In this document: one piece after another, positions 426 through 27,569 of the stretch
How positions within the stretch are numbered: the stretch's first letter is position 1
Layout of the letters: every line of letters begins with the position of its first letter
From: Sphingomonas hankookensis
GTDB lineage: Bacteria; Pseudomonadota; Alphaproteobacteria; Sphingomonadales; Sphingomonadaceae
Direction: 5' to 3'
NCBI RefSeq assembly: GCF_001619955.1
Contig: NZ_LQQO01000045.1
Span: 1 to 64,000 of the forward strand
Length of the DNA: 64,000 nucleotides
Notes under the pieces: model-generated
The model's database searches: none
Told to the model about the DNA's origin: nothing
What the model saw: only the letters and a program-made list of their open reading frames with translations
Translations under genes and position numbers: made by a program

Positions 426-787
426 GACCCCCAATAGCGGTCGTTCAGCGCGATCGCGGAAAAATCTTGACGGAGCAGCGTCCGCGCATGCAGCCGCCCG
501 AGATGCGGTCCCGCTGCGTCTTGGCGCGTGCGTGATCCTCGCAGTCACATAGTACCCGGTTCGTGGGGCAACACGCCCGCCTCACCCCAACGCATCCAGC
601 CGTTGTAGAGCGTCTTGTGGAGCCCATAGGCGCTGAATGCATCGCTCCAGCGCAGGCCGTTCCGGTTGACGAACACAATGCCGCTCAACACACGCCTGTC
701 ATCCACCCGAGGCTTGCCATTGCTTTTTGAGAAGAACGGCCGAAGCCGCTCGACCTGCTCATCCGTCAGCCAAAACAGGTCACCCAT
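426..787 (-). pseudogene. IS5-family (IS427-like) transposase remnant
   Basis: The frame from the ATG at 787 down to 545 keeps about the first 70 residues of an IS5/IS427-group transposase. MGDLFWLTDEQVERLRPFF, then GKPRVDDRRVLSGIVFVNRN and GLRWSDAFSAYGLHKTLYN, match the family N-terminus. The frame then leaves the family sequence and stops at 545, so the DDE catalytic region is missing. Between about 545 and 426 another minus frame reads RQDFSAIALNDRY before a stop. This vaguely resembles the hydrophobic C-terminal tail of the family and suggests a large internal deletion. A possible outer end of the element (GAGTCTGAATC in minus-strand sense) lies near 805-815. The element is inactive. It shows that this end of the island has been a target for insertions. 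Confidence 0.7.
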
Positions 788-881: not shown

Positions 882-2621
882 TCAGGCGACCCGTTGCTGA
901 AGACGGCGTCCGAAGGCCTCTGCTTGCCGCTCATATGCCTTCCGTGCCGTTGTCGGTAGAAGGAGATGGAGCAGTCCCCGCGCGCGAGACAGCCCCGCGT
1001 AGTGGAGCATGGCCCATCGGTCGTGCCCCACCTCCTCCATGTCGATGGCGATCACGACCTGCCGCTCGAGCCCCTTGAAGGAATGCATCGTAGTGAAGAG
1101 CAGCGCGCCGGCCTTCAGCGCCGCTTCGTCGACCGGCTCGGCGAGCTTTCGGCCCGCGATCTCACGGCGGCCGGCGAGCATCGAGTTCTCATGCCGCCGG
1201 GTCGAGAGGATCGCTATGTCGCGCGACGGCACGTCGCGCGCGATGAGCTCGCGGACGATCGCGTCCAGCCGCGCGACGCCGTCGTCTCCGCCGGCATGGT
1301 AGTGGACTTGGCACTGCGGGCCGTCCGGCGCCCCCGCGACCGCGAGGTCGATGCCGGACGTGATCGAGGCTTGTACCGCGACCTGCCGCGTGTTCCGGCA
1401 GTTCTCGAACAGGTCGTCGAACGCGGGTGCGCCCTCCGCGAGCCGCTGCTCAACAGCGTCCTGCGTCTCGACTCCGTAGATGTTCTGGAGCGGGTCGAGG
1501 AAGAAGTGCCATCGGCCGCGCCTTAGCCCGTCCTCGACTAAGAGGTCGATCACGTCGAGATGCTCGGGCGTGAGTAGATCTTGGGCCTCGTCCAGCACGA
1601 CCACGTCCCAACGCTCGGTGGCGCGCTCGCACAGAGCCTCGGCCGCGATCTCGGGGAACCGGCGCGGGAAGAAATTGGGATGCTCCGCATTCTCCGCGTC
1701 TAGGCGGTCGAGCATGCCCGCGGCTCTAATTAGCTCGTGGTAAAGCGCGTGGACGTGGCGGACTTCCGGCTTCGGGCCGTCGGCCTCCGCCGCGAGCCCC
1801 TGCCGGACATGGCTGGCGAGCAGCTGGTTGAAGCACAGCATGAGGACGCGCTTGCCGCCGGCCGCGAGCTGGCGGGCACGCTCGAGCGCGATCACCGACT
1901 TCCCGGTGCCGGCCGGTCCGCGGACGACGGTCCGGGGATTGGCCGCGAGCCGGCGCGAGGCGCGGATCTGCTCGTTGGACAGGTAGAGCAGTCGCGCGTC
2001 GACGCCAGTCAGGTAGCCGCCCAAGCTGAGCGCCGTCTCAAGGTCCGGGCGAAGGATCTGGCGGGCGAGCCGAATCTCGTCCGGCCTGAGCCCGCGGTAG
2101 TTCCTGCCGTGCTTGTCGGCGCAGACCTCGTGCCAGTGCCTCTGCAGGGCCGAGATGTAGTGGCCTAGCGTGTCGCGGAACTGACGCTTGTCTAGCAGCA
2201 CCTCCGGAACGATTTCGGCGCCGGTTTGCCTGAATTCGGTGTAGGGCATCACGACCCCGAAGCCGAACAGCGCGTCCTTGAAAGATCCGTTCGCCTCTTG
2301 GAGCCTCGACTTGACGGCGTTCATCGCTCCGGACGCCTGCGTCCAAGGGCTCTCGCGCTTGCTGTAGCTCCTGAAGTCGCCGGAGAAGGTCCAGACCCCA
2401 TCCGAGCAGGACACCTTGCCGCCCTTCACCTCGAGCGCGAACACGCCAAGGGTGGAGAGCACGATCATGTCGGCTTCGCCCCAGATCTTGGTCTCGTGCC
2501 CCGGCAGGCCGAGCGAGTGCAGCACCACCCAATCATCCGGAAGCTCGCGCCCGAGCCGCTCGTAGACGAGCCGCTCGCTGTTGGGACACTTGTCGGGGAC
2601 GTCGGGGATCAGGACTGCCAT
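882..2621 (-). CDS. NERD nuclease-domain / SF1 helicase fusion, last gene of the DISARM-like operon
   Basis: The 579-aa protein has an N-terminal NERD (nuclease-related) domain, with GEADMIVL around D51 and FALEVKGG around E64/K66 giving the D...ExK pattern of PD-(D/E)XK nucleases. A superfamily 1 helicase of the UvrD/DUF2075 type follows. Its Walker A is RGPAGTGKS (235-242), its Walker B VVLDEAQDL (344-348), and TMHSFKGLERQVVIAID and AGLSRARGLLH are near the C-terminus. The start is the ATG at 2621: GGAGG sits four bases before it, and it overlaps the end of the DrmB-like gene by 13 bp, so the two are probably translationally coupled. In canonical DISARM the third core gene is drmC, a phospholipase-D protein; here a different putative nuclease occupies that place. 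The likely role is processing or cutting foreign DNA, inferred from domains and context only. Confidence 0.85.
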   Translation of the reverse strand: MAVLIPDVPDKCPNSERLVYERLGRELPDDWVVLHSLGLPGHETKIWGEADMIVLSTLGVFALEVKGGKVSCSDGVWTFSGDFRSYSKRESPWTQASGAMNAVKSRLQEANGSFKDALFGFGVVMPYTEFRQTGAEIVPEVLLDKRQFRDTLGHYISALQRHWHEVCADKHGRNYRGLRPDEIRLARQILRPDLETALSLGGYLTGVDARLLYLSNEQIRASRRLAANPRTVVRGPAGTGKSVIALERARQLAAGGKRVLMLCFNQLLASHVRQGLAAEADGPKPEVRHVHALYHELIRAAGMLDRLDAENAEHPNFFPRRFPEIAAEALCERATERWDVVVLDEAQDLLTPEHLDVIDLLVEDGLRRGRWHFFLDPLQNIYGVETQDAVEQRLAEGAPAFDDLFENCRNTRQVAVQASITSGIDLAVAGAPDGPQCQVHYHAGGDDGVARLDAIVRELIARDVPSRDIAILSTRRHENSMLAGRREIAGRKLAEPVDEAALKAGALLFTTMHSFKGLERQVVIAIDMEEVGHDRWAMLHYAGLSRARGLLHLLLPTTARKAYERQAEAFGRRLQQRVA

Positions 2622-4501
2622 GAGGCCTCCGGAGCGATCGGGCCGAAGAAGCCCTCGAAGGTGCTCTCGGCGTCGCCCACCAGCACGGCGCGGTCGAGCT
2701 CGCGGTTGAAGCGCTCGCAGGCGGTCTCCGGCAGAAGTAGGCAGCAGTGGCATGCCGCACCGCTCACCCGGTCCCCTGATTGCTTTGGGTCTGTCTCTAG
2801 GCAGACAGGGTCGCTTCCGCACCACCCCGCGTTCGCGAGTGTCCGCAAGATGATCGGCTCGAGCAGCTCCGGCTCCGCGAGACGCACCAGTCCTCCGAGA
2901 CTACCCTCGGAGTCGGGTGAGCCTGTGTATACGAGCACGCCGTTCATGATCCGGTTCGAGTCCGAGACGTAGAGGCGTTCCCGGAGCGCTGAAGCCGAGT
3001 AGCCGCATTCCACCGAGATCTGGCGGATCAAGGCGTGCGCGAACGAGTGAACGAGCAGTAGGCGCGCCGTGATGGTGTAGTCGCGCTCGTATCCCCGCTG
3101 CTCCGCGATCCGCCTGCTGCGTGCCTCCAAGATGTTTGCGCGCTCCACCGCACCGGGACTGGCGGCGATCCACTTGTCGACCGCTTCGGTCCGGAAGCGG
3201 AGAAATATGCCCTCGCCTCTGATCTCCGCGCCTGGCAGCCACGAGCGTGGAGTCTTGGAGAGCGGCGAGACCTTCCCTTGGGCGATGGCCTCGGCGACGC
3301 GCTCGGCGCTCACCGGGTGCGGTTCGATCCGCGAGAAGCCGGCGAGCGCGCGCACCTCCCGCAGTCTCGAGGCGGCCCCGATCAGATCGAACCAGTTCGC
3401 CAGAGCTGGAGGAGGAGTCAGTGCCTCGTTCTGGAATTGCGGGACGATGCCGCCCACGATGGGATCGTTCCTATCCTGCGACAGCGCGTCGTATTCCTGC
3501 TCGCGCGCAGCCCGTTCCGTGAGCGCCGGTCCGCCCTCCTCGATCGCCCGGACCCGCCTGTAGGCGGCGAGGAGCTGTGCGACCGGCACGCCGTAGGTCT
3601 GCGAGACGCCCGCGAGCACCGATGGCAGCGCGGCGTCGGGAACGCCGTCGAGGAACATCCTAGACTGCTCGATGAGTAGGTTCAGCGCCTCGGATGCCGG
3701 CGGGATCGAGAGCGCCGAACCGACGACGCCGAAGTGTATGTTGGACGCACCGCGCTGCAGGGCGCGGACCGGCTCGCGGCAGTCGGCCTGCCGGTCGTGC
3801 AGCCAAGGCCGGAAGCCGTCGCACCTCCAGCCGCCGAGCGCGTCGGCGCCGAAGGCGGAGCCGAGCGACTCCCGCGTCGGCCGCTCGGCCGTGCCGCAGC
3901 CCTCGCAGGTGACGTAGAGGTCGGCGAGCGAGGCAGACTGCCCATGCGACCCGAGCTTCAGGAGCGGTCGCTGGCAGACGCCCTCCTGCCGCCCCCTGTG
4001 CGCCCACCACTCCCACGGGAAGTCGCTGAGGTGGCCCTTTCTGCACGCGACGACGAACCTGACGGGACTGGTGTAAGTGGTGGCGTTCCCGTGCGCCGTG
4101 CAACGCAACCGCGCGCCGTCGTCGGCGAGCTCGAAGGGAGCGCCCTCCTTCCCGATTCGGTGGCACTTGGGACACTCGTGCCACTCTGGGAACCTGACTG
4201 CCGGCGCCGCGCTGCGCGCGCGCACCTGTGTGGTACCCGCGAGCTGCTCCTTCACGGGTCCCAGCCGGAAGTGGCTGACGCCGAGCATGGACTGGAGCCT
4301 CTCCTCGCCGATGCGCAGCGCCGGGAGCGAGTTCACCCGCTCCCAGTCCTCGAGCCCCATCGGCATGAACGATCCCTTTTCGAGATCGACGATCGCGCCG
4401 ATCCCGAAGGTCGAGACGAGCTGTGAGCGCCGGACGCTGCCGATCGGCTCGATGGCGTCCGTGGCGGCCGGTGCGGGCGCGAAGCGGGGCCGTCTGGCCA
4501 T
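2609..4501 (-). CDS. drmB: DrmB-like protein (DUF1998), DISARM core component
   Basis: The 630-aa protein carries the DUF1998 signature near the C-terminus: a zinc-type cysteine group AACHCCLLLPETACERFN followed by RELDRAVLVG. The N-terminal half has further cysteine pairs (HECPKCHRIG, CEGCGTAERP, a CRKGH motif) and the phrase VSTFGIGAIVDLEKGSFMP, which is usual for DrmB proteins. In characterised DISARM, DrmB forms a complex with the helicase DrmA that acts on incoming phage DNA. The start is the ATG at 4501, preceded by AGGAGA. This ATG shares one base with the TGA of the DrmA-like gene (TGATG), so the stoichiometry of the pair is probably coupled. Its order directly after drmA is as in DISARM. 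Confidence 0.88.
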   Translation of the reverse strand: MARRPRFAPAPAATDAIEPIGSVRRSQLVSTFGIGAIVDLEKGSFMPMGLEDWERVNSLPALRIGEERLQSMLGVSHFRLGPVKEQLAGTTQVRARSAAPAVRFPEWHECPKCHRIGKEGAPFELADDGARLRCTAHGNATTYTSPVRFVVACRKGHLSDFPWEWWAHRGRQEGVCQRPLLKLGSHGQSASLADLYVTCEGCGTAERPTRESLGSAFGADALGGWRCDGFRPWLHDRQADCREPVRALQRGASNIHFGVVGSALSIPPASEALNLLIEQSRMFLDGVPDAALPSVLAGVSQTYGVPVAQLLAAYRRVRAIEEGGPALTERAAREQEYDALSQDRNDPIVGGIVPQFQNEALTPPPALANWFDLIGAASRLREVRALAGFSRIEPHPVSAERVAEAIAQGKVSPLSKTPRSWLPGAEIRGEGIFLRFRTEAVDKWIAASPGAVERANILEARSRRIAEQRGYERDYTITARLLLVHSFAHALIRQISVECGYSASALRERLYVSDSNRIMNGVLVYTGSPDSEGSLGGLVRLAEPELLEPIILRTLANAGWCGSDPVCLETDPKQSGDRVSGAACHCCLLLPETACERFNRELDRAVLVGDAESTFEGFFGPIAPEASWQS

Positions 4502-7500
4502 CACATTCTCCTGGTCACGGTCTTGAGGGCGAAGGCGGTCGAGGGCTCCACCTCCCGCATGGAGTTCGGCGTGGTCCAAGCGAGGGCTCCGGGCTGGCTG
4601 CCCTCCTCGGCGGAGGTCATGAGGTGCGGCTTGGTTCGCCCGTAGGGCGCCGCCCTCTTCCAGTAGACTAGATCCGTGCCTGAGGCCTGCGCGTTCTGGC
4701 TGCGCGCCGCCCATTCGGCGACGATGGCGTTCACGTCATCGGCCGATTCGGCCGCCTCAATGCCCAGCGACGCGGATGCCGCCCGGGAGCGGATCGCGGC
4801 GATCAGCGGCCCGACGTCCGGAGCCTCCGGATCGAAGGCGGCTGCCGCGTCATCGTCGTCCATTCCGGCGCTCAGGTGTCTTACGGCGGCCGCGACTACC
4901 GCGTGTAGCGCTTTGTCACGTGCGCGCGGCGCCCACGGGGTGACGCTGGTCGCCTCCACGCTGCGGTAGAGCGCTCCGTGGTAGGAGAGGAAGTGCTCGA
5001 AGTGTGACACGTCGCGAGGACGACCAAAATTGTAGAGGGTCAGCACCAGCCCGTCGATGCCGCGCCCCACGCGGCTGCTGGCCTGGATGTACTCCGCCGT
5101 GGACTTTGGCTGGCCGTTCACAAGCATGAGCCCGAGCCGCGACACGTCCACGCCGACCGATATCATGTTGGAGGCGAGCACGGCGTCGCGGGGCTCGGGA
5201 TCGAACGGGTCAGACCCGTCGGGCAGCGGATTGGCGAGCTCATTGAGGTAGGCCGGAAGATCGCGGGACGAGACTCGGCTGCTAAGCTCAATGGCGTCGG
5301 TTTCGAGGCGCCTCGGCCTAGACCCGAGCCTGCTGGCGAGGAAGGCGATCTGGCGTGGAATGTCATCCTGCAGGAGGACGTGCGCGCCGCCCAGCTCGCG
5401 AAGGCTGTTGAAGTACAGCACGCTTGTCCAGAAGGGATCGGCGAGCGGCGGCTTGGCCCCGTTCTCGACGAGATGCGCGATGCCTTGGAGCAGCGCGGCC
5501 GCAGCCGCCTGCAGGGCGAACTTGGGGCTTCGTCCCGCGGAGCACAGGCCTAGGTAGAGCCGGTCGGCACCCGTCTCGTCGCGCACTGCGAAGAACGAGT
5601 CGCCGGCCTCGAAGCCGGATGGCGGGAACTGCAGCACCGGCCGGTCGAACAGGGCCCGCACCTGACGCGACGCCTGCCCGATGGTCGCGGTCGATCCGAT
5701 CACCTTCGGCCTGACGCCATCTTCCGTGCAGAGCAAGTCGACGACAGTCTCGTATAGACCCGCCATGGAACCGAGCGGGCCGGATATAAGATGCAGCTCG
5801 TCTTGGATGATGAGACCCGGCCTAGTGCCACCATCGAGTCCGAAGAGTGCACGCAGGTCGCGCCTCCTCGGAAGCTGCGCGAACTTGTCGATTGTGCCGA
5901 TAAGAAGGCTCGGCGGAGCGTCGTAGATGAAGTCGTCGACCGTCATGACCGGCAGCGGTTCGCCTCTGCTCGCGCACCGGGCGTTGGCACAACGGATCTC
6001 GATGCCGGAATCGGAGGGCGCGCGCGAGTAGCAGCCGGCGTCCAGCCCGCTCCCGCAAACGGGGCAGTCGAGGAGCTGCCGCGGCGTGGACTTGGGCTTC
6101 TGGTAGTCGTGCTCGAGGTCAAGCGCGTTCATCGCATCGCCCGTGCGGTTCGGAGTGGCGTCGCCTCCGACGTAGAGCCCGAGGCTGATCGGCGCCTCGC
6201 CTAGGTCGGCGCGCTCGATCCGGATCGCGTCGCACGCGCAGATCAGTGCGGCGGCCCGCTGGAACTGCTGCACGGTGAGCAGCCTCAACGTGTAGCGCAT
6301 CAGCACGTCGACGCCGCCCTCCTCGCGGCGGCGCTCGCTCGTGAGCCGGCGGTGCAGGATCTGGAAGGCGGTCAGCCCCAGATACGCCTCAGTCTTGCCG
6401 CCGCCGGTAGGGAACCACAGAAGGTCGACATGATCGCGATCCGGATCCGACCCGTCGACCAGCCCTGGAAGCACCATGAGGATGTAGGCCAGCTGGAACG
6501 GGCGCCAGGTCAGCGGACCGGCCCGGTCCGCTTTTGAGGCGAACCGGGACTGCCGGTCCATCGCCTCGTTGGAGAGCGTGAACGCGCGCCACGCGTGGCG
6601 GTCGGTCCGGAGCGTGGCGATGCCCGCCCTGATCCGGCGGAGCGCGTCGCGGCAGCGCTGGAGGTTGCGCTCGGCTGCGTCCCCCAGATCCCCTTCGAAC
6701 GTCGTGACCCGGACTGCCAGCGTGCTGTCGATCCACGCCTCGTAGGTGGTGGCGAAGTCCTCCAGCGCCGCCAGAACCTCTTCACGCCCTTCCTCTCGTG
6801 AGAGCCACGAGGCGGAGAGCGCCTGCTCGTGCCGGCCGAGGAAATCCCGGAGCGACCCGTGGCCGGATGCGCTCATGCCCTTGACCAGCGCGGCGGGCAT
6901 CCAGGCGGTCTCGAGACGTGCCACTCGGCGCTGCTCGGACGGCTCCCACTCGACGGCCACTCCGTGACCGGCGGCGTATTCGAGCACGTCGCGGTAAAGG
7001 AGGGTCGCTGAGAGCGCGTCCTCGTCCGCCCCGACCGTTGCGGGCGCGGGCCGTGGCCTGATCGCCCCGCCGCCGTCCGCCGCGAGCGCCTTCACCTCCA
7101 GTCCCGACTGGAGCAGGCAGAACTCGTCGCGCATTCGGTCTTCGGTCGGCTGCGCCCTGTTGATGAGGGTCAGTGTCAGCACCTGCCGGCCGTCGGTGAT
7201 CCGCCGCCTGACGTGCAGACAGACGGAGGGATCGGAGACCGGCGCGCCGTCGGCTCCGGAGAACTGGTGGACCCGCCACGTCCCGGCCGCGCCGGGCGCG
7301 ATCTCGAGCCGGTAGTCGAGCTGTCGCCTCAACCACATGCGTCTGGGTTTTCCGCCCTCCTTCAGCGGTTCGCGCTCAATAGCTACGTAGCGCGCGGTTC
7401 GCGCGGTCGAGACCAAGATGGTAGCCTGCTCGTCGGCGGCGAAGGTCAGGCCGAGCGAGCATGGCCTGACGGCCCGGTATCCGGGCACGCCGGCATCGGC

Positions 7501-7707
7501 CTCGCCGTCCATCTCCTGCGGCGCACCGTCGTCTTGGTCGTCCTCGATCGCACCAAGGATCTCGCCCTCCGGCCAGAGGATGCCGGTGAGATAGGTGTCG
7601 ACGGGCGCGGAGGCGATCTCCTCGTCGTCGGCTAGCGGGCCGAGCAGGAGAGCGGTCGCGGTGGACACGAGGTCGCTGCGGACCGGTCGGTGGTCGAGGC
7701 GGGTCAA
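4501..7707 (-). CDS. drmA: DrmA-like SF2 helicase, DISARM core component
   Basis: The 1068-aa protein begins with the DrmA-type segment LLLGPLADDEE then DTYLTGILWPEG. It carries an SF2 helicase with Walker A LWFPTGGGKTEAYLGL near residue 440, an insertion with cysteine pairs (CPVCGSG, CANARCAS), motif II IIQDELHLISGPLGSM, motif III GSTATIGQAS and the family hallmark MISVGVDVSRLGLML then QPKSTAEYIQASSRVGR. A strand-initial open frame continues upstream to 7764, but the better start is the TTG at 7707. It overlaps the stop of the UvrD gene as ATTGA and has AAGGACAAGGA just before it. The protein should translocate on or remodel DNA as part of the DrmAB complex. Membership in the DrmA family is clear; activity of this variant is inferred. 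Confidence 0.88.
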   Translation of the reverse strand: MTRLDHRPVRSDLVSTATALLLGPLADDEEIASAPVDTYLTGILWPEGEILGAIEDDQDDGAPQEMDGEADAGVPGYRAVRPCSLGLTFAADEQATILVSTARTARYVAIEREPLKEGGKPRRMWLRRQLDYRLEIAPGAAGTWRVHQFSGADGAPVSDPSVCLHVRRRITDGRQVLTLTLINRAQPTEDRMRDEFCLLQSGLEVKALAADGGGAIRPRPAPATVGADEDALSATLLYRDVLEYAAGHGVAVEWEPSEQRRVARLETAWMPAALVKGMSASGHGSLRDFLGRHEQALSASWLSREEGREEVLAALEDFATTYEAWIDSTLAVRVTTFEGDLGDAAERNLQRCRDALRRIRAGIATLRTDRHAWRAFTLSNEAMDRQSRFASKADRAGPLTWRPFQLAYILMVLPGLVDGSDPDRDHVDLLWFPTGGGKTEAYLGLTAFQILHRRLTSERRREEGGVDVLMRYTLRLLTVQQFQRAAALICACDAIRIERADLGEAPISLGLYVGGDATPNRTGDAMNALDLEHDYQKPKSTPRQLLDCPVCGSGLDAGCYSRAPSDSGIEIRCANARCASRGEPLPVMTVDDFIYDAPPSLLIGTIDKFAQLPRRRDLRALFGLDGGTRPGLIIQDELHLISGPLGSMAGLYETVVDLLCTEDGVRPKVIGSTATIGQASRQVRALFDRPVLQFPPSGFEAGDSFFAVRDETGADRLYLGLCSAGRSPKFALQAAAAALLQGIAHLVENGAKPPLADPFWTSVLYFNSLRELGGAHVLLQDDIPRQIAFLASRLGSRPRRLETDAIELSSRVSSRDLPAYLNELANPLPDGSDPFDPEPRDAVLASNMISVGVDVSRLGLMLVNGQPKSTAEYIQASSRVGRGIDGLVLTLYNFGRPRDVSHFEHFLSYHGALYRSVEATSVTPWAPRARDKALHAVVAAAVRHLSAGMDDDDAAAAFDPEAPDVGPLIAAIRSRAASASLGIEAAESADDVNAIVAEWAARSQNAQASGTDLVYWKRAAPYGRTKPHLMTSAEEGSQPGALAWTTPNSMREVEPSTAFALKTVTRRM

Positions 7708-9854
7708 TCCTTGTCCTTCCACGTTTGGAAATCGCCGGTGCCGAAGAGTCCGACGCCAAGCCACAGTCCGCTCGTGCGCTCCGGTTCGCCAAGCCGGTCA
7801 GTGTCGCCGGCGGAGACCGTGCCGACCGACGAAATCCTGAGGTTCAGGATCGTGGGCGGCAGCTTGTAGCCTTTCTTGTGCAGCACCTTCAGCAGATCCT
7901 TCGAGAGCTGGTTGGCGGTCCGGCCGAGCAGCCTGCCCGGCTTGTTGCCCTCCTGGAGATGGATGTGCCACTCGGCATGGTCGCCGGCCCGATGCTTGCA
8001 GAGCATGACCTTACGCCCCGGCAGGGTGGCGGCCTCAGTCAAGAGAAGTGCCTGCAGCGCCTCCACGCCTTCAGCTCCTCCTAGCAGTTCGGGATCCGCG
8101 AAGCCGAGCGGGTCGATGTCGCCGCGCAGCCCCATCTCCATGTTGATCCACCGCTTGCGCCAGCATGACAGCCGCCGGCGCCCGTCGGCGAAATCCCAAT
8201 GGACAGGGACGCGGTAGATCTGACCCGCGGGTGCGCGTTCGAGCGTCCGTCCGGCCCGTGTCATGCCAACGTAAGCGACGCTGGCCCGCTCCCCCGGATC
8301 ATCTTCCACGCCGTCGTCTCGCTTCTGGCGCTCTTTCGGCTCGAGCAGGGTGACGGCGTCGAACTCCATGCCCTTGGACTGGTGGACGGTCGTGACGATC
8401 ACGCCGCCCTCGGCGACGGGCTGGTCGTCTGGGAAGGCGTCGGGCCACGTGAGGCGGTCGCGAAGCTGGGCCATGTCGATGGCGTTGGCGTCCTCGGCGG
8501 CCCCGCTCGCACGCGCGAGCCGCAGCCAAGCCACCTCCTCGACCGGCAATCCCAGCCGTGCGCAACCCTCCTTACCCCAAGCATCTGCGAGATGGGTGTG
8601 GATGCGGCCGAACTGCGATCGCGGTACCGAAGTGGACCGCGCCTTCCTGAGCAGCGCTCCGATCCACGCGGGCGGCAGCGCGGTGTGCCTGCCGGCGTGC
8701 AGCCGGACGGGGACCGCCGTGGCTTCAGTTTCTTGGCCGTAGAGTGCCTGCAGCACCCGTAGCGCCTCCCCGTTGGTCTGCGTCAGTATCGCGCGGCTGC
8801 CTCCCGTGGCGGCCTCCAGCAGGCCGCGCCCCAGCGGCTTCGCTGGCTCCGGCAGCGCCGAGATCGCGGCCAGCATTACCCGGAGCTTCTCCCGTTCGGG
8901 ACGGTCGCCGAGTAGGACGGTTCTAAGGCTCGACGACGTTTGTGCGAGGGATGCCTCCGCCCGGTGGTTCCTGACCAGTGACCCATGCGTGAGCTCGCCG
9001 TCGTAGAGCCGGCCTACCTCGTCCCAATACTGTTTCGGCGTCGGGAAGGGGGTTCCATCCTCGCGTGCGCCGCTGGCGAAGCCGTAGATCGCCTGCGCCG
9101 GGTCACCGAGAATCGTGAATCCGCAGCCTTCTTGGCCCCGGGGCGCCAGAAGGGCGAGAAGCGCCAGGACGAGGTCGCCGCGAACACCGGGCAGGTCTTG
9201 GAACTCGTCCACGACGATGTGCCGCCGGTCGCCGATGAAGCGGCGCACGTCGTCCCGGCGATCGCCTCCCATGAGTTCGGTGAGCGCGGCAATGTTGTGG
9301 TCGTGTGGTCGGGTGATAAGCGTTTGGGGCGCTTCGCCAAGCAGGCGGAGCATCCTGAACGCCCAAGAGTCGAAGGTCCTGATCGATAGGTGGCGAAGCT
9401 CTTCGACGACGCGCGCGTCAGTTTCGCCGATCCTTCCGATGCGCTGGGTCAGTGTTCGCACCGCGCTGCGCGAGAAGCTCAGGACGAGAAGCTGCGAGGG
9501 CGAGAGCTCCCGTCTGACGAGCCCCGCGAGCCGCCGGGCCGCGATCTCCGTCTTGCCGGTACCCGGACCCGCGTCGACCAGCATCCGTGCTGAAGCCGAG
9601 GCTCCTGCGATGCAATTGCGGACCGCCGTGTCGTCCGGAGGAGCCTCCGGCTCGGGCCTGTTGACGCGCGGCTGCCGTGGTCCGTCCGCCTCGTTGTCGA
9701 GTGGAGTTCCATTGATCTCGATCCGGCCCTCGTGCAGGCGCCAGAGGTGACGACGATACATCACCGCAGGTCCGCCCTTGGCTTCCCGGAGCGGACGTTC
9801 CACCGTCTCTATGAGCTTGCCCGCCTTCTCGACGGCGACCTGCACAGTGCTCAT
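7704..9854 (-). CDS. UvrD/PcrA-like SF1 DNA helicase of the DISARM-like operon
   Basis: The 716-aa protein is an SF1A helicase: Walker A DAGPGTGKTEIAARRLAG (96-102), motif Ia SFSRSAVRTLTQRI, motif II VVDEFQDLPG (216-220), motif III GDPAQAIYGFASG, motif V VTTVHQSKGMEFD and motif VI SVAYVGMTRAGRTL. After the helicase core comes a C-terminal part of about 170 residues with no domain I recognise (LGFADPELLGGAEG, then HRAGDHAEWHIHLQ). The start ATG at 9854 is preceded by GGGAGGGATC. The gene overlaps the next gene by four bases. A UvrD-type helicase is not one of the standard DISARM subunits (drmA-E or the methylases), so it is a candidate accessory or replacement for the SNF2-type DrmD. Confidence 0.85.
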   Translation of the reverse strand: MSTVQVAVEKAGKLIETVERPLREAKGGPAVMYRRHLWRLHEGRIEINGTPLDNEADGPRQPRVNRPEPEAPPDDTAVRNCIAGASASARMLVDAGPGTGKTEIAARRLAGLVRRELSPSQLLVLSFSRSAVRTLTQRIGRIGETDARVVEELRHLSIRTFDSWAFRMLRLLGEAPQTLITRPHDHNIAALTELMGGDRRDDVRRFIGDRRHIVVDEFQDLPGVRGDLVLALLALLAPRGQEGCGFTILGDPAQAIYGFASGAREDGTPFPTPKQYWDEVGRLYDGELTHGSLVRNHRAEASLAQTSSSLRTVLLGDRPEREKLRVMLAAISALPEPAKPLGRGLLEAATGGSRAILTQTNGEALRVLQALYGQETEATAVPVRLHAGRHTALPPAWIGALLRKARSTSVPRSQFGRIHTHLADAWGKEGCARLGLPVEEVAWLRLARASGAAEDANAIDMAQLRDRLTWPDAFPDDQPVAEGGVIVTTVHQSKGMEFDAVTLLEPKERQKRDDGVEDDPGERASVAYVGMTRAGRTLERAPAGQIYRVPVHWDFADGRRRLSCWRKRWINMEMGLRGDIDPLGFADPELLGGAEGVEALQALLLTEAATLPGRKVMLCKHRAGDHAEWHIHLQEGNKPGRLLGRTANQLSKDLLKVLHKKGYKLPPTILNLRISSVGTVSAGDTDRLGEPERTSGLWLGVGLFGTGDFQTWKDKD

Positions 9855-9995
9855 GATCCCTCCCGTTCGCAGGCTAGCCGGCTGTAAGGGAAACGCAAGT
9901 GGCTGCCATCCGGTCGTGTAAGCCGGGAGGCGACGAGTGCCTGCTTGAGGCAGGGCGATCGCGACGTCGGGCAGTCCCCTTTCCCGACTTACTCA

Positions 9996-10020
9996 CGCCC
10001 GCCGCCTGCCACGGCGGGCG
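9996..10020 (-). promoter_or_regulatory. Perfect GC hairpin in the leader between the first two DISARM-like genes
   Basis: CGCCCGCCG (9996-10004) and CGGCGGGCG (10012-10020) form a perfect 9-bp stem with a 7-base loop. It lies in the 216-bp gap 9855-10070, the only real gap in an otherwise overlapping operon. There is no T-run after it, so it is a poor intrinsic terminator; it could attenuate, stabilise mRNA or mark a processing site. The same gap holds a possible promoter for the downstream four genes (TTGCGT then TAGCCT, 16 bases apart, about 9885-9912, minus strand), which is weak. Confidence 0.5.
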
Positions 10021-10070
10021 CGCTTCCGGAAGCATAGATGCGCGTCGAATATAGTGGTGGATCCGCGGGC

Positions 10071-13000
10071 TCATGCCGCCGCCCGCTCCCGCCCGGCTTC
10101 GAAGAACTGCCTGCAAAAGTGGTAGGCCAGCCGGTCGCGGTAGGTGAGGATGTTGTCCTCTACGGTCGCCACTTCGCAGTGCGGCGTGCCTCCGTTCGCC
10201 GGCCCCCGCAGACCGCGCCCGACCATCTGCATGTATCGGACCGCACTGAATACCGGTCGCGAGATCAGGATCATGTCCGACTTGGGTGCATCGAAGCCCG
10301 TGGTGAGCACCGAGTGGTTGCAGAGGACTCTGAGCTCGCCCTCCCGGAAGCGTCGGATGAAGTGCTGACGGGCGAGGCGGTCCGTCTCCCCACTGACCGC
10401 CGCCGCCGGGCAGCCGGCGAGGTGGAGCCGCGCCGCTAGGTACTGGCCGTGGGCTACGGAATTGGCGAACAGGAGGATGGAGGAGGCTTGGCTGGCGAGC
10501 ACGTGCTCGAAGATCAGGTCGTTGCGCTCCCTGTCGTGTCCGATCCGTTCGATAACGTGCTCCGGCAGCTCCCCATACTGGTCAAAGTGACGTCGCTCCG
10601 CCTCGCTCAGCTCGACGGGCCGGTCGTATCTGATCGGGCTGTAACGCATCTCCGCGAGCACGCCGCGCCGCCTTAGGGCGTCGTGCAGGCCCGCTTGGTC
10701 ACGCGGCAGCCATCGTCGATCAAAGCGAGCGGCGAGACGTGCGGACTCGTCCTCGTCGCGACCACGCCACGGGGTAGCGCTCAGCCCTAGCACGGGCGGC
10801 TCCCGGTCCCGGGCGGTCTCGGTCCCAGTCTGCACGTCGAGCCAGCGCAGTAGCGAGCTGTAGCTTGGCGCGATAGCGTGGTGACACTCGTCGATCACGA
10901 CGACCCCGGGGCGGCTTAGCCATTCTAGACCGCGCACGTCGAACCGCAGGTTCAGCGTCTGAATGCTCGCCACGACGACGACCGGCTCGTCCGCGGCCGG
11001 AGGGCGTGGGTCCGGCTGGCCGGCCCAGAGCCTCGCGACCCTGAGATCTTGCCCCTCCCGGCCGAGGTTGGACCAGAGCTGCCGGAAGCACTGCACGGCC
11101 TGCTCGCACAGCTCGTCCGTCTGCGCGACCCACAGCGCGCTCCGCTCGCCCTCGCCGTTGAGGACGAGCCTCACGACGGCTTCCGCAGCCACCCTCGTCT
11201 TGCCGCCCCCGGTAGGCAGGCTTACGACCGCGCGCCGTCTTCCCCGTCCGCTCTCAATGAGCTCGCGAAGTGAGGCGAGGATGTCGTGCTGGTAGTCGTG
11301 CAGGTTCGGCAGAGGAGCAGGGCCTGAGACCAGCAGCTCGGGATCGCGCCTCACGCTGACGCTACTCCCGTACTCAGCGGGGAACCCCAGTTCCGTCGCG
11401 AACTCCCGCGCCCTCTCGCCGCCCCAGCGCTCGGGAGGCTGCAGGCCCGACGAGGCGAGCGCCGCTTGGAGTCTGGAGAGGATGGCCGGTCCGTTGATCG
11501 CGATGGCGAGTTCGGCGATCGTCACCGCCTCCGCCTTGCCGCACAGCGCGCGCACGGCCGGCTGCGGAAGGGTGGCGAGGAGGACGGCGGGATCGCCGCC
11601 GACTGCCCGCAGCAGTCGCAGCGGCAGGTTGGGCTCCGAGCGCACGTTCGCACGTGCTTCGGCCGCGCGGGCGCTGCTAAGCAAGGCCATGGCCTCGGCA
11701 GGATCGGTCGGGAGCAGCCCGAAGCCGTGGAGCGCTTGAACGAGCGCCTTGACGCCGTCCGCCCAAGACAGTGCGCTCATCCGGTCGCGGTCGAGAAGCA
11801 CCACGCCGGTCGCGTCGCGGGCGACCGGAGGCTCCCGGTCCTGGTAGCCGCTGCGCTCCGACAGTCCGAAGACCCACATCGCATCGGGCGGGGTGACCGA
11901 GGCGAACAGTGGCGACAGCTCGGGGAATAGGCCGGTAAGAGGACCCGGCCTGTCCAGCGTGTCGTCGTAGGAGGTCTCGGTGTGTTCGGCGAGCAGCCGG
12001 GCGCCGGCGTCGATCCATAAGTCCGCTGCGGCGGGTGACAGGGTGATGAGGCGTCCGTCCTCACTTGCGCTGGCGGCTTGGTCTCTGTCGACGCTGACGA
12101 ACACCTGATCGATCGGTAGTGGTCCGTCGCGGGTCGGCACGACCGGAGGCACAGCCCCGTCGCGGACTGCCCCCTCCCAAACGGGGCACAGCCTGTCGAA
12201 CCGGTCCCTGACCTGCGCGGCGGCGGAGAACACCGCCGACCAGGCTCCGGCCACCTCCGTCGGATCGGCCGACTTCCCGCGACCGAGGGGATCGAGTTCG
12301 GTCGGCTCGGCCATCGCGCGACGGAAGGCGGTGACGGCCGCTCCGTCGCATAGCCCTGCGGCGTCCAGCACCAGTGCCGTCTCCTCCGGCGCCGCCCTCA
12401 GCGCGACGATGCTGTCGCCGATTCGCACCCGTCCATGCTCCGCAAGGATCGCGAGGAACGGATGCGGCGCGGTGAACTCTTCGTAATTCTCGCGACGGGT
12501 GAGATGACCGAAGGTCACCGCATCGAACAAATTACCGTCACCGTCGCCTCCGATGGCGGTCGTCTGCCGTCTTAGCGCCGCGATGCACTGGCTCCCCAGA
12601 TCCGCCGCGAGCCCCGCGGGTGCGAAGGGCAGGATCTTCCAGCCGTGCGGCATGTCGATGATGCTCGCTTGAAGGACCCCCGTCTTGCCCCAGCGCGGAC
12701 TGCCCTTCATCCTCGGCCAGCCGAGCGAGCGGAGGTTGCTGAAGTAGCCCTCGACCAAGCGCCCCGCACGCCCGGTGAGTTCGATGCCGAACCGGACGCC
12801 GGGCGGCGGCAGGCGTGCGAGCAGCCACGCCGGCAGCCGTGACGCGTGCGGTGCATGGAAGTCGCGGTCGAGCGCCAGCTCGTTGGGCACGTCGTCCGCC
12901 TCATCAACGGAGGGGACGACGAGCTCGTCGCGGGGCCTGAACGCGCCCGTCCTGTCACGGAACCTAAGGTCGTTTGCGTTCACGTTCGCCAAGAAGGCGG

Positions 13001-14843
13001 ACGCCGCCTCTGGAGGAGCATCCGCGAGGTTCGCCCAGAACGGGACCCAGTTGTCGCCGCCCGACGCCTTTGCGGCGGCCAAGGCGCCGGCGAGCACGTC
13101 GCCCCAGACATCCTCCGCCATCTCCCGCACTCCGAGGATGCGCGTGAGCACGTCCTTGGATCTCTCGTCTGCGACGACGGCCGGGGCGACGGGCTCGAGG
13201 CCGGCCGGCGCGCTGCCGGACGTGATGATTGTCAGCGCGGCCGGCGCCAGACGCCCGCCGGCGGTGGGGATGATCGCCGCGGCGCGCAGATCCTGCGGGG
13301 CGAGAAGCTTGCGCTCCGCCGCGTCGCCGACGAGCGAGAGCAGCGCTGTCGCGGTGGTCGGGTCGATGCTCGCGGCGCGTTCCAGCCAACGAGGCGCGGT
13401 GACGATCCCCAAGGCTTCGGGCCTGCCCGAAAGGGACCTGTTGCGCCGGCCGGTCGCCTCCTGCGCGAGCGCGGTGAGCCGCGCCCCGCGGCTCCGGCCC
13501 GCTTGGCAGGTCGGGTGCACGAACGGTCCCGTGCGCATCTCGCCCGCGATGCCATGCCAGCGCCGCAGCAGCTCGGCGTCCTGTGTCGGATGCCGCAGCA
13601 GCTCGGCTGCGCGCCGGAGACTGCCAGTCCCGTCCGCCACAATTGGGCGGTCAGCGAGCAGGTCCCAAAGCGGCTTCACAAGCGAGGCCGCGATCTCGTC
13701 CTGCCGCTCGAGCTGTCTCGGAAGCGCGCCGATCGGGATGCCCGGGTCCTCAGTCGTCGCGAGGTAGCCCATGTGGTCGGCCATCAGCTTCGCGGCTTCC
13801 TGCATGAGGGCCTCGTTCCACGCCCCCTTGATGACGCCCGTGCGGTCGCTGTTCAGCTTCCAGGGCGCGTTAAGGATGCCTTCGGCGAGCGTCTGGCTCT
13901 GCGTGGGGAAGAAGGCCCAGAACTGTCCGGCCGCCTCACGCCCGCCGACCGGCACGGCCCATGCGAGGGGCACCTCGTCGCGGGCCTGCAGATGGAGGGC
14001 GTCAGCGATCGCAGCGGCATCCGTGATCCGAACCCGCCGTTGGAACACGCGCCAGCGGGTCTCGCTCTGTTCGTCGCCGACGACTAGGAGGTCGCCATCG
14101 TGCCTGCGCGTGATGATGCGCAGCGGACCCCCGTCCACGTTGAGCACGAGTTCCACGTCGGCGTCGAGGAAGAGGAGAAACTCCGCGGGAAAGGAGACCA
14201 TCTCGCTGACGAGCCGCTCGCGGACGGCGGGGTCCGCCACCTCGGCGGTGACCACCGTCGTCGCCCAGTCGAGGTCTCCGTCGGGTCGAAGCGGCCCGCT
14301 CGGATCGGCGGGATCCACGGCCACCGCGAGGCGCATGCCGGGTGCGCGGGCGCCCGTCTCAAGTCCGAGCCGCTGCCTGATCGTAGTGCGGCACCATTCG
14401 GGGTCGAATCGCAGGCCGACGGAGCGGCTGACGATCTCGACTGCCCCGCCGAGTTTCAGGAGCGACTTGAAGCCAATGCCGAACCGGCCGATCTGACCGG
14501 CGCGCTTGGACGAGCTCCTCGCGTTCAGCAGGGCGACGATGCCGCCCTCGTCCAGCGCAGCGCCGGTGTTCGCCGCGACGATGCGGTCGCGCTCGAGCGT
14601 AATCTGGATGCGCCCGCTCGAGTCCCCGGCCTCTCCGATCGCGTCGGCGGCGTTCTGGACGAGTTCGAAGAGCTGCCTCCAAGCGTACCCGCCGGAAAGC
14701 ACTTCCACCTCGGTCTCGTAGTGCTCGTTGACGTCGCGCGGCTGTGCCTCGTAGGCCCGCATGCGGCGTTCGCACTCCTCGACGATGAAGGGTGCGAGTC
14801 TATCATAGCCGCCGCTAGTCGCGGCGGGGTTCACAATTGCCAT
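10071..14843 (-). CDS. Giant GHKL-ATPase / DEAD-type SF2 helicase fusion, first gene of the DISARM-like operon
   Basis: The 1590-aa protein starts with a GHKL (Hsp90/histidine-kinase-like, sacsin-type) ATPase fold: N-box ELVQNAADAIG (60-70), ANTGAALDEGG (91-101) and the lid GRFGIGFKSLLK (119-130). About 1000 residues of unassigned sequence follow. From about residue 1165 to the end there is an SF2 helicase: SLPTGGGKTRVAAEA (Walker A), VVVIDECHHAI (motif II), LGLSATPWRG (III), LCNHSVLTTGFDAP (V) and YMQMVGRGLRGP (VI). The start ATG at 14843 follows AGGGGCAGA. The fused ATPase and helicase suggest a sensor or clamp-like motor acting on DNA. Proteins of this general build occur beside restriction and DISARM-like genes; the exact function is unknown. 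It sits upstream of, and in line with, the UvrD-drmA-drmB-NERD genes. Confidence 0.85.
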   Translation of the reverse strand: MAIVNPAATSGGYDRLAPFIVEECERRMRAYEAQPRDVNEHYETEVEVLSGGYAWRQLFELVQNAADAIGEAGDSSGRIQITLERDRIVAANTGAALDEGGIVALLNARSSSKRAGQIGRFGIGFKSLLKLGGAVEIVSRSVGLRFDPEWCRTTIRQRLGLETGARAPGMRLAVAVDPADPSGPLRPDGDLDWATTVVTAEVADPAVRERLVSEMVSFPAEFLLFLDADVELVLNVDGGPLRIITRRHDGDLLVVGDEQSETRWRVFQRRVRITDAAAIADALHLQARDEVPLAWAVPVGGREAAGQFWAFFPTQSQTLAEGILNAPWKLNSDRTGVIKGAWNEALMQEAAKLMADHMGYLATTEDPGIPIGALPRQLERQDEIAASLVKPLWDLLADRPIVADGTGSLRRAAELLRHPTQDAELLRRWHGIAGEMRTGPFVHPTCQAGRSRGARLTALAQEATGRRNRSLSGRPEALGIVTAPRWLERAASIDPTTATALLSLVGDAAERKLLAPQDLRAAAIIPTAGGRLAPAALTIITSGSAPAGLEPVAPAVVADERSKDVLTRILGVREMAEDVWGDVLAGALAAAKASGGDNWVPFWANLADAPPEAASAFLANVNANDLRFRDRTGAFRPRDELVVPSVDEADDVPNELALDRDFHAPHASRLPAWLLARLPPPGVRFGIELTGRAGRLVEGYFSNLRSLGWPRMKGSPRWGKTGVLQASIIDMPHGWKILPFAPAGLAADLGSQCIAALRRQTTAIGGDGDGNLFDAVTFGHLTRRENYEEFTAPHPFLAILAEHGRVRIGDSIVALRAAPEETALVLDAAGLCDGAAVTAFRRAMAEPTELDPLGRGKSADPTEVAGAWSAVFSAAAQVRDRFDRLCPVWEGAVRDGAVPPVVPTRDGPLPIDQVFVSVDRDQAASASEDGRLITLSPAAADLWIDAGARLLAEHTETSYDDTLDRPGPLTGLFPELSPLFASVTPPDAMWVFGLSERSGYQDREPPVARDATGVVLLDRDRMSALSWADGVKALVQALHGFGLLPTDPAEAMALLSSARAAEARANVRSEPNLPLRLLRAVGGDPAVLLATLPQPAVRALCGKAEAVTIAELAIAINGPAILSRLQAALASSGLQPPERWGGERAREFATELGFPAEYGSSVSVRRDPELLVSGPAPLPNLHDYQHDILASLRELIESGRGRRRAVVSLPTGGGKTRVAAEAVVRLVLNGEGERSALWVAQTDELCEQAVQCFRQLWSNLGREGQDLRVARLWAGQPDPRPPAADEPVVVVASIQTLNLRFDVRGLEWLSRPGVVVIDECHHAIAPSYSSLLRWLDVQTGTETARDREPPVLGLSATPWRGRDEDESARLAARFDRRWLPRDQAGLHDALRRRGVLAEMRYSPIRYDRPVELSEAERRHFDQYGELPEHVIERIGHDRERNDLIFEHVLASQASSILLFANSVAHGQYLAARLHLAGCPAAAVSGETDRLARQHFIRRFREGELRVLCNHSVLTTGFDAPKSDMILISRPVFSAVRYMQMVGRGLRGPANGGTPHCEVATVEDNILTYRDRLAYHFCRQFFEAGRERAAA

Positions 14844-23848: not shown

Positions 23849-24473
23849 TCATGGTGGCAAACGGACCATTGCAGCGTCGAACAGGGCGGAGCTGACCATC
23901 TCATTCAGCCAAGTGCCGGTGAGCGACAGAGGCTGGGTGTCAAACCAGCAGCGATTGATCACAGCGAATTGCCGCACGAAGGGCAGAATGGCTGCGTCGG
24001 CAAGGCCCATGGCATCACCGCAAGGACAGCGGTTAGCGGACAGGCGCTCCTCAAGCGGGCGCGACAGCTTAAGACATGCGGCGCGGTGTGGTGCCGGTTC
24101 GCTGTCGTGACGGTCAGGGCATTTTGCACAGTCAAGGTTATGCTTAAACGAGACATCATCGGCGGCGATCAGATCACCGTCGGTACGGTCCAGCCAGCCT
24201 GCCTGCCGGATCATGGCGTGCAAGCACTTTGCGCATGATGTCGAGGCTCTGGTCGAGCACGCTCCCATCGGACAGCACCGGCACGGTCGCCTTCGGCGAC
24301 ACAGCGAGCAGCTCGGCGGGCTTCGCGGAGAGTCTGATCTCGCGGATGATGCAAGCCGTGCCGCTCGCCAGCAGGGCAAGCCGCGCGCGAATCGCATAGG
24401 GACAACGCCGGAACGAATAGAGCAGGGGAAGGCTGTTCGCACTTGTGGCGGTATCCCCACCCCTCATGCCCAT
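23849..24473 (-). pseudogene. Frameshifted glutathione S-transferase-like gene
   Basis: The first part (24473 to about 24195) encodes a thioredoxin-fold GST N-terminus: LPLLYSFRRCPYAIRARLAL, then KATVPVLSDGSVLDQSLDIM. After HDPAG the homologous continuation (GWLDRTDGDLIAADD, then GLADAAILPFVRQFAVIN and SALFDAAMVRLPP) is in another frame and runs to the stop at 23849. One indel near 24195-24215 explains this. All parts of the family are present, so it is either a recently broken gene or a sequencing error. The start overlaps the end of the restriction endonuclease gene by about 10 bp. GSTs conjugate glutathione to electrophiles; it has no obvious link to its defence neighbours. Confidence 0.75.
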
Positions 24474-25825: not shown

Positions 25826-26295
25826 CGTTCCTCCAGCATGGCGTCCAGCCCACGGATCTCGATGACCGTATCCTTGCTGCGGATCCATGTCGCCAGTGTA
25901 TTGAGCACATCGCCATGATCGCGCCGCGTGCGACCCTTCAGCGCACATTCCCATACGACAGCGACGCGCCAGCCGGCATCATGCAACGCAGCTTCGGCGC
26001 GCGCATCAACCGTGCGGTTGCGCGCGATCTTCGCGCGCCAGAACTCTTCACGGGTTTTGGGCCACTTGAAAAGGTGGCAGTCATGGCCATGCCAGAAACA
26101 GCCATGCGCCTGTACCACCGCGCGCCAGCGTGAAAACACCAGATCGGGCGTGCCTGGCAGGCTGCGATCGTGCAGCCGGAAGCGCAGTCCGCGGGCATGC
26201 AGCCCGCGGCGCAGCAGAAGCTCGGGTTTTGTGTTGGTGCTGCGGATGCCTGCCATCATCCGGCTGCGCACATCAGCCGGAACGACGTCAGCCAT
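25822..26295 (-). CDS. vsr: Very short patch repair (Vsr) endonuclease
   Basis: The 157-aa protein matches Vsr throughout: RSRMMAGIRSTNTKPELLLR at the N-terminus, GLRFRLHDRSLPGTPDLVFS with the catalytic Asp, AHGCFWHGHDCHLFKWPKTR, and GWRVAVVWECALKGR. Vsr nicks next to T in T:G mismatches that arise when 5-methylcytosine deaminates, so it protects sites modified by the accompanying cytosine methylase. The start ATG at 26295 lies inside the end of the methylase gene, an 8-bp overlap. A second in-frame ATG three codons upstream is possible. Confidence 0.92.
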   Translation of the reverse strand: MADVVPADVRSRMMAGIRSTNTKPELLLRRGLHARGLRFRLHDRSLPGTPDLVFSRWRAVVQAHGCFWHGHDCHLFKWPKTREEFWRAKIARNRTVDARAEAALHDAGWRVAVVWECALKGRTRRDHGDVLNTLATWIRSKDTVIEIRGLDAMLEER

Positions 26296-27541: not shown

Positions 27542-27552
27542 GCCTGTTCCCT

Positions 27553-27569
27553 GTGTCGATTTGCGACAC
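27553..27569. promoter_or_regulatory. Candidate operator of the restriction-modification operon
   Basis: GTGTCG-ATTTG-CGACAC is a perfect 6-bp inverted repeat with a 5-base spacer in the 5' leader of the methylase gene. M.SsoII-like methylases with an HTH N-terminus repress their own gene through such a short palindrome. A related half-site, GTGTCGATCG, lies just inside the gene near 27519. Binding by this protein is inferred. Confidence 0.5.

Follow-up and report, generated by a model that had tools for sequence, protein, structure and literature searches.

A UvrD-containing operon with a DrmA-DrmB core in Sphingomonas hankookensis represents a recurring, apparently unnamed branch of DISARM

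DISARM defence systems reportedly fall into two kinds, class 1 and class 2, as set out by Ofir in 2018. The definitions used by PADLOC list DrmA, DrmB, DrmC, DrmD and DrmMI for type I and DrmA, DrmB, DrmC, DrmE and DrmMII for type II (PMC9252829, cited here, like the other sources given by PMC number, for part of its text). In the Serratia system, a disordered trigger loop (residues 176-232) holds DrmAB off double-stranded DNA until a 5' overhang displaces it, DrmA residue V1296 has been proposed as a sensor of cytosine methylation, with methylated DNA giving lower ATPase activity, and DrmC is dispensable (PMC9142583). Here we analysed a 64,000-nucleotide (nt) stretch of Sphingomonas hankookensis (contig NZ_LQQO01000045.1, positions 1 to 64,000; hereafter the window), in which five minus-strand genes between positions 882 and 14843 encode an Hsp90/sacsin-type ATPase-SF2 helicase (gene 1), a UvrD helicase, DrmA, DrmB and a NERD nuclease-helicase. 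This operon belongs to a recurring branch of DISARM that is apparently unnamed and part of whose ground has already been glimpsed by others. On balance we lean towards reading the locus as a DISARM-like defence system of a UvrD type, with a DrmAB sensor, a UvrD/NERD effector and structure-based sparing of self DNA supplemented by linked 5-methylcytosine (5mC). The genes are as follows.

10071..14843, minus strand: gene 1, 1590 amino acids (aa) from the ATG at 14843; the enclosing open reading frame (ORF) opens at 14936
7704..9854, minus strand: gene 2, UvrD-family SF1 helicase, 716 aa
4501..7707, minus strand: gene 3, DrmA (YprA-family SF2 helicase, short type), TTG start at 7707; the longest ORF opens at 7764
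2609..4501, minus strand: gene 4, DrmB (OB/DUF1998-MZB zinc protein), ATG start, assigned by profile and by its match to 7s9v_B
882..2621, minus strand: gene 5, NERD (PD-(D/E)xK-type) nuclease fused to an SF1 helicase, assigned by Pfam

Comparison of the window DrmA with the NCBIfam DrmAS model gave 935.3 bits, slightly below the cut-off of 950, while the PADLOC DrmA profile gave 726 bits and the solved Serratia DrmA (7s9v_A) was matched at E 1.1e-156. DrmB scored 494.4 bits against NCBIfam DrmB (cut-off 240) and matched 7s9v_B at E 1.9e-83; encoded by a gene separate from DrmA, it carries the DUF1998/MZB region, with the MZB domain at 34.4 bits (cut-off 24.2). On these profile and structure-based matches, both core proteins are true members of their families, DrmA and DrmB, as a first-pass annotation of the window had proposed from motifs. 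That annotation had also described five same-strand ORFs with every junction after the first overlapping, and the layout was confirmed: the UvrD stop and the DrmA TTG overlap by 4 nt, the DrmA stop and the DrmB ATG by 1 nt, and DrmB and NERD by 13 nt, with a 216-nt gap between gene 1, most likely starting at the ATG at 14843, and UvrD. The overlaps suggest translational coupling of UvrD, DrmA, DrmB and NERD, which is not proof of a single complex.

With class 1 and class 2 DISARM the locus shares the DrmA-DrmB core, the helicase motifs, an acidic loop in the place of the trigger loop, the putative 5mC-sensing valine and C5 methylases nearby. It differs in that the operon is without DrmC, DrmD/DrmMI and DrmE, contains UvrD and NERD-SF1 proteins, and has its methylase in a separate restriction cassette. 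The absence of DrmC, DrmD and DrmE from the operon had already been recorded in the first pass and held up on reanalysis, DrmMI being absent too. No DrmE appeared among the profile matches of the window operon and no DrmC was found there; one DrmC query of the whole genome was also empty, a weak negative that had no positive control. Because the PADLOC definitions need DrmC together with class-specific genes (PMC9252829), the locus fails both DISARM types.

Conservation of the gene order was checked in 94 neighbourhoods, window included, from a survey covering 396 genomes of the window's order, 13 of which had a DrmA-like hit with E 1e-30 or lower, and the best 80 of at least 585 DrmA relatives in a species-level genome collection, a selection that biases the set towards window-like DrmA; one genome has a second copy, L027, which was excluded. 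Operons were defined as same-strand runs with gaps below 250 nt and gene families by blastp single-linkage clustering, with profiles run for representatives only, so that divergent DrmC, DrmE or C5 genes could escape. Operon content divided the neighbourhoods into 31 UvrD-type, 24 with NERD but no UvrD (NERD-type), 12 class 1 and 27 other, the last including loci cut by contig ends, L032 and L099, where no DrmA was picked, and L051, which was scored there although tblastn finds gene 1 and UvrD in it.

In other phyla the order is found again at 23-84% protein identity, far from what chance would give. In 30 of the 31 UvrD-type loci the gene directly upstream of DrmA is UvrD. The hosts of the UvrD-type loci fall into eight bacterial phylum-level groups (Pseudomonadota, Acidobacteriota, Myxococcota, Chloroflexota, Actinomycetota, Bacillota, Synergistota and Melainabacteria) and include one archaeon. 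Another genome of the same genus (L021) carries all five genes in order at 68-80% identity, two loci from the same family (L022 and L023) carry UvrD-DrmA-DrmB-NERD without gene 1, and a truncated contig (L024) carries UvrD-DrmA. NERD is part of 15/31 UvrD-type operons. Gene 1 and NERD occur together in four, namely the window, L021, L034 (Sphingomonas sp. BK345) and L042 (Dehalococcoidia), while six actinobacterial loci have gene 1-UvrD-DrmA-DrmB without NERD. The first pass had looked to co-conservation of the five-gene order, and this was borne out in part: the core recurs in 31 loci, but gene 1 is optional (11/31) and all five genes meet in only 4/31. The class-specific genes followed the same pattern as in the window, with no DrmD, DrmMI-type methylase or DrmE in any of the 31 UvrD-type operons by clustering, a DrmD-cluster gene outside the operon in one neighbourhood stretch, and DrmC in one operon (that of a Methanophagales archaeon) and in two stretches. 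A C5 methylase lies inside the operon in nine. Gene content, order, motifs, conservation and the linked C5 cassettes are observed features of these loci. In a separate set of 398 genomes sampled evenly across the phylum, DrmA was matched at E 1e-60 in 15, among which the UvrD-type order was seen in the genome of the window and in G661 (genes 100% identical to L040, probably the same genome), and a NERD gene lay close to DrmAB on the same strand in three (L151, L153 and L154).

The window UvrD matched its Pfam family at 78 bits, and its predicted structure (predicted local distance difference test, pLDDT, 82.3) gave Rep/PcrA/UvrD as top Foldseek matches, followed by AdnB and RecB, with no nuclease seen in the model or among these matches. 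Its C-terminal domain (around residues 545-716) is conserved within the family (27 sequences), and a sequence search of the PDB with this part returned no match. Distant UvrDs are 19-30% identical to the window protein, yet the conserved C-terminal positions G644 and G705, which they share, suggest a single family and not UvrD proteins in general. Judged by gene content, UvrD is the defining extra subunit of the branch.

The NERD domain of gene 5 matched Pfam at 39.5 bits, and its catalytic motif block lies as follows.

2418..2480, minus strand: NERD catalytic motif block of gene 5, residues D119, E132 and K134 of the protein (P0005)

The ExD...EVK motif and the SF1 motifs were intact in 15/15 copies from UvrD-type operons. 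NERD proteins were also seen in a different non-canonical layout, DrmE-NERD-DrmA-DrmB, at L029, L081, L082 and L151, with C5 or Vsr genes near L029, L081 and L151, which suggests that the NERD nuclease-helicase also belongs to some class 2-like systems. In five actinobacterial loci (L059, L061, L078, L088 and L101), a gene of about 370 aa from the NERD-helicase cluster directly follows DrmB, possibly a split or duplicated helicase.

The first pass had allowed that related arrays might already have names. A literature search found no named UvrD/NERD DISARM type within its reach, which stopped short of subscription papers, most preprints and supplements; mentions of DISARM-like classes were found. 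Bell et al. show 'Uncharacterized DISARM-like' classes of YprA helicases (PMC12458937, Fig. 1 legend), and Bell et al. 2024 tied some McrBC branches to a DISARM-like system and others to DNA methyltransferases, a topic those authors postponed (PMC11090510). Both may include the UvrD branch; the portions of text compared, which leave aside the supplements, give no UvrD and NERD composition, name or test. ARMADA, BRIGADE and TALON have a YprA-family helicase in common with the locus, ARMADA II also a GajB-like UvrD helicase and TALON a NERD nuclease, but their YprA helicase usually carries DUF1998 itself together with a BrxA-like insert, whereas DrmA and DrmB are split here (PMC12458937). ARMADA further carries BrxHII-like and PglX-like genes, none of which is in the window operon, and on the fused DUF1998 and the BrxHII/PglX partners, as given in that text, identity with ARMADA was rejected (PMC12458937). 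In TALON, NERD comes with TPR-CSD and TBP genes, while here it is fused to an SF1 helicase, and neither TPR-CSD nor TBP was among the Pfam matches of the scanned operon and island proteins. Shield-associated operons are likewise DISARM-like with an extra subunit, but in the text cited that subunit is a homologue of ShdA (RmuC-domain), not UvrD or NERD (PMC10270631). As for Gabija, the window UvrD is weakly GajB-like (75.6 bits), but its C-terminal domain is conserved in its own family, and no GajA was among the matches listed for the seven adjacent proteins (for UvrD, 25 of 31 families).

A gene set without DrmC, DrmE and DrmMII could also be what is left of a class 2 DISARM that has lost them, and C5 methylases are indeed common around the operon, whose 3' side bears an insertion sequence (IS) remnant.

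548..787, minus strand: truncated remnant of an IS4/5-family transposase just downstream of gene 5, PF13340 55.5 bits

Such decay is very improbable, since the core recurs in 31 loci across phyla, the DrmA helicase motifs GGGKT and QDELH are kept in 31/31 UvrD-type DrmAs, and these DrmAs sit in a few well-supported clades; a degraded DISARM was rejected on the recurring gene order and the intact motifs. The clades come from a DrmA tree of 90 rows (LG+G4, midpoint root, with support from the Shimodaira-Hasegawa-like approximate likelihood ratio test, SH-aLRT, only), from which L033 and L037 were left out by hand and L032 and L099 because ORF picking or clustering yielded no DrmA for them. On this tree the UvrD label (30 rows) changed five times, at least three of the changes being forced by well-supported branches, compared with a mean of 25.3 for shuffled labels. 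Fifteen UvrD-type DrmAs form one clade (support 96), within which the window falls in a subclade of seven (support 100). An Actinomycetota/Chloroflexota group (support 99) is UvrD-type in 7/8, the eighth being L051, where tblastn finds gene 1 and UvrD, and a Bacillota/Synergistota/Melainabacteria group (support 99) also in 7/8, the eighth being L050, which breaks off directly before DrmA. Neither the archaeal DrmA, which stands apart, nor the class 1 DrmA of the window's own genome, which lies elsewhere, belongs to these groups. Deep branches between the UvrD-type groups are weak and compatible with one origin or several.

Because the parts resemble repair helicases and nucleases, we also considered whether the operon encodes a housekeeping complex for DNA repair, akin to MrfAB or RecBCD. 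The patchy distribution makes this hardly credible: DrmA-like genes occur in 13 of the 396 genomes of the order and UvrD-type loci, the window among them, in five, and the setting is a defence island with carriage on plasmids and some IMG/VR contigs. DrmA matches were found in 53 plasmid records at E 1e-60, and five of the 11 plasmid regions opened were UvrD-type. In Azospirillum ramasamyi, UvrD-DrmA-DrmB-NERD lies on a mobilizable plasmid and is followed by a DarT-family gene and then a Tn3 transposase. These four genes are also found on plasmids of Rhizobium rhizogenes and R. ruizarguesonis, a Shinella plasmid has the same four-gene order by tblastn, and a Tsukamurella plasmid has UvrD-DrmA-DrmB. 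The gene after the operon on the Azospirillum plasmid (L115:5436-15671) encodes a DarT-family single-stranded-DNA ADP-ribosyltransferase. In the four annotated UvrD-type plasmid loci, DrmA is labelled 'helicase-related protein' or 'DNA helicase'; many other plasmid records are labelled DISARM DrmA, and the one checked was class 1. Twelve IMG/VR contigs, which are putatively viral, contained a DrmA relative, with UvrD directly upstream in 6/12, and a search of a phage collection with DrmA at E 1e-30 gave no match.

Gene 1 consists of an N-terminal Hsp90/sacsin-type GHKL ATPase (sacsin ATPase domain, 65.6 bits), a long middle region and a C-terminal RadD-like SF2 helicase (ResIII, 72 bits). It has conserved ELVQNAAD and GRFGxGFKS motifs along with the SF2 motifs, and the GHKL motifs were kept in 12 sequences. 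A model of residues 1-1165 reached a pLDDT of 71.6 and a predicted template modelling score (pTM) of 0.49, was poor in its central part, where several stretches between residues 674 and 962 stay under pLDDT 50, and had Hsp90 proteins as its best matches, weakly so (E 2.8e-6, with low template modelling scores over the whole query). The best PADLOC match was TmtA at 158 bits, TmtA presumably being a protein of the system called Tiamat. This match, the 216-nt gap before UvrD and six loci with the other four genes and no gene 1 (L022, L023 and L035-L038) would fit two adjacent systems, a stand-alone TmtA-like sacsin-type ATPase/helicase next to an independent UvrD-DrmA-DrmB-NERD system. We think this doubtful. 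Gene 1 lies directly upstream of UvrD in 11/31 UvrD-type operons from Pseudomonadota, Chloroflexota, Myxococcota and Actinomycetota, the myxococcal copy (L045) being an 811-aa ORF with the helicase part only; it overlaps UvrD in all six actinobacterial operons, and its similarity to TmtA is confined to roughly the N-terminal 600 residues. Gene 1 is on these counts an accessory gene of the UvrD-type operon. Six other UvrD-type operons, those of a clostridial-type group from Bacillota, Synergistota and Melainabacteria (L052, L057, L090, L091, L093 and L098), carry a gene for an Hsp70-like ATPase just upstream of UvrD, three of them also with NERD downstream, the assignment being confirmed by Pfam for L057 alone. 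This hints at a chaperone-type ATPase, Hsp90-like gene 1 or an Hsp70-like gene at the same place, as a recurring accessory.

How self DNA is spared without a neighbouring methylase had been posed as a question in the first pass. The DrmA features that bear on it are the following.

7483..7569, minus strand: acidic loop of DrmA, around residues 66-94 of the protein (P0003), at the position of the Serratia autoinhibitory trigger loop
4549..4551, minus strand: codon of DrmA V1072, the equivalent of Serratia DrmA V1296 by alignment to 7s9v_A

The motifs Y-L-x-G-x-L-x-P and P-x-S-x-G-x-T-F flank both the window acidic loop and the Serratia loop. A net acidic stretch (acidic minus basic residues, 4 to 11) was present in 30/30 UvrD-type DrmAs with data, L037 giving none for the loop as its DrmA is split into two ORFs, and the V1296 equivalent was valine in 30/30 with data. 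With an acidic loop where Serratia DrmA has its trigger loop, and with the valine put forward as a 5mC sensor, the window DrmA makes the puzzle smaller; the way the sensor works has probably been kept, and the operon probably has no strict need of a methylase of its own. The likeliest answer to the question is that self DNA would be spared by its structure, with 5mC damping the activity.

The premise of that question, that no modification gene is nearby, did not survive, since a C5 methylase-Vsr-EcoRII-like cassette lies 9.6-12.8 kb from the operon in the same defence island.

26288..27637, minus strand: C5 cytosine methyltransferase with an N-terminal helix-turn-helix (Dcm/DrmMII-like), DrmMII 414.7 bits and MTase_II 462.5 bits (PADLOC)
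25822..26304, minus strand: Vsr mismatch endonuclease of the same cassette, assigned by profile
24464..25954, minus strand: EcoRII-C-type restriction endonuclease of the same cassette, PF09019 89.8 bits

Homologous cassettes adjoin the operon in two genomes. At L036, a methylase-Vsr-EcoRII-C cassette lies divergently about 300 bases upstream of UvrD, with a methylase 63% identical to that of the window, and at L044 such a cassette follows NERD in line, with a methylase 52% identical; their EcoRII-C proteins hold the same place and are 30-34% identical over part of the protein. In the closest five-gene relatives, L021 and L034, NERD is followed after about 250-265 bases by a C5 methylase of 496 aa, the window methylase, of the EcoRII-like kind, being only about 32% identical to part of it. 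A different C5 cassette with AAA (McrB-like), DUF2357 (McrC-like) and Vsr genes was found at L034 and on R. rhizogenes pC5.7d, a set-up that resembles the LlaJI system. To speak of 'no methylase' is misleading because the contig ends just past the operon (base 1 of the window is base 1 of the contig, leaving 881 visible bases 3' of gene 5), the cassette is in the same island, and homologous cassettes adjoin operons elsewhere.

Across the survey, 14/31 UvrD-type, 4/24 NERD-type, 1/12 class 1 and 6/27 other loci have a C5 gene less than 1 kb from the operon, and 20/31, 19/24, 1/12 and 10/27, respectively, have one anywhere in the neighbourhood stretch; the window would not count among the 20 had the mapping not covered 30 kb of it, and the long operons of class 1 loci leave less flank for such counts. 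Short C5-cluster members in L058 and L062 lack methylase motifs, and dropping that of L058 would give 18/24 instead of 19/24 for the NERD type, though L058 has another C5 match by tblastn and L062 another cluster member. Vsr genes numbered 8/31 among UvrD-type loci by clustering, with tblastn giving more. For comparison, a search of 99 genomes from the order, each of about 3 Mb, returned 71 PF00145 match rows, some being pieces of a single gene, so that a random 20-kb stretch would be expected to hold a C5 gene in well under one case in a hundred, the comparison being with whole genomes rather than other defence islands.

The island methylase is a possible source of a self mark, and the same genome has two further candidates, the DrmMI of a class 1 DISARM on contig C11 and a second PF00145 gene on contig C63. 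The class 1 locus itself (L020, G000:C11:168000-187999) has DrmD, DrmMI, DrmA and DrmB, and the next gene matches Cas8e of type I-E CRISPR rather than DrmC. A serious contender, to which we give somewhat less than even chances, is that DNA structure alone spares self DNA and that the linked C5 restriction cassettes are just island neighbours. The Serratia trigger loop discriminates by DNA structure (PMC9142583) and the acidic loop is present here; 11/31 UvrD-type loci have no C5-cluster gene in their neighbourhood DNA, and the cassette types vary. The frequency of C5 methylases within 1 kb against the genomic background and the invariance of the proposed 5mC-sensing valine argue the other way.

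Taken with these data, the reading we favour, a UvrD-type DISARM-like system, would work in the following steps, in which anti-phage function, polarity, subunit contacts and the use of cassette methylation are predicted. DrmAB would be autoinhibited and kept off double-stranded chromosomal DNA by the trigger-type acidic loop, as the conservation of that loop suggests, and by homology would load on exposed 5'-ended single-stranded DNA of incoming or replicating phages or plasmids. On self DNA, 5mC would damp the activity, as the conserved valine suggests, the mark perhaps coming from the EcoRII-like cassette at 24.5-27.6 kb. UvrD (expected to run 3'-5') and NERD-SF1 would then unwind and cut the DNA opened by DrmAB, to judge by domains and gene order, so standing in for the usual DrmC, DrmD and DrmE, and gene 1 or the Hsp70-like protein might, more speculatively, act as a modulating accessory.

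Several observations weigh against this scheme. The window loop has about 30-35 residues compared with 57 in Serratia, and since the survey's other DrmA types have both loop and valine as well, these features speak for a retained DrmAB sensor and mark nothing special to this branch. NERD is missing from 16/31 UvrD-type operons, some of them cut by contig ends, so that the nuclease step is not universal. The island methylase is 11.4 kb off and outside the operon; with cassettes that are EcoRII-like in some loci and McrBC-like in others, the methylase may serve its own restriction system only, and the association of C5 cassettes with the operon could be ordinary defence-island clustering. To these are added the C5-free loci and the sampling bias already described and the six of 11 opened plasmid regions that were not UvrD-type.

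Among the neighbouring genes, a HyoA-like NACHT antiphage protein is encoded at 15125-19810 on the plus strand, divergently from gene 1 (NCBIfam 1088 bits, below the cut-off of 1200), and an Olokun-like pair lies at 19957-23489 on the minus strand (OloB 686 bits, OloA 373 bits). By these profile matches the operon sits in a defence island with Hyo- and Olokun-like genes.

A broader proposal, which we put forward tentatively as the less likely outcome, is a third DISARM class that extends from bacteria to at least one archaeon. Its DrmAB would pass foreign DNA on to a UvrD/NERD helicase-nuclease pair, a chaperone-type ATPase (Hsp90-like in some members, Hsp70-like in others) would control how the complex assembles or is released, and provision of the self mark would be outsourced to exchangeable C5 restriction-modification-Vsr cassettes. 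The findings touch two questions about DISARM, which nuclease cuts, given that DrmC is dispensable (PMC9142583), and how self DNA is spared. The branch pairs the DrmAB sensor with UvrD and, in about half of the operons, with a NERD nuclease-helicase, which provides a testable candidate nuclease. Because the nearby C5 methylases come in interchangeable cassettes, it separates structure sensing from methylation. Class definitions that require DrmC and class-specific genes, as those of PADLOC do in the text cited (PMC9252829), would miss the UvrD branch.

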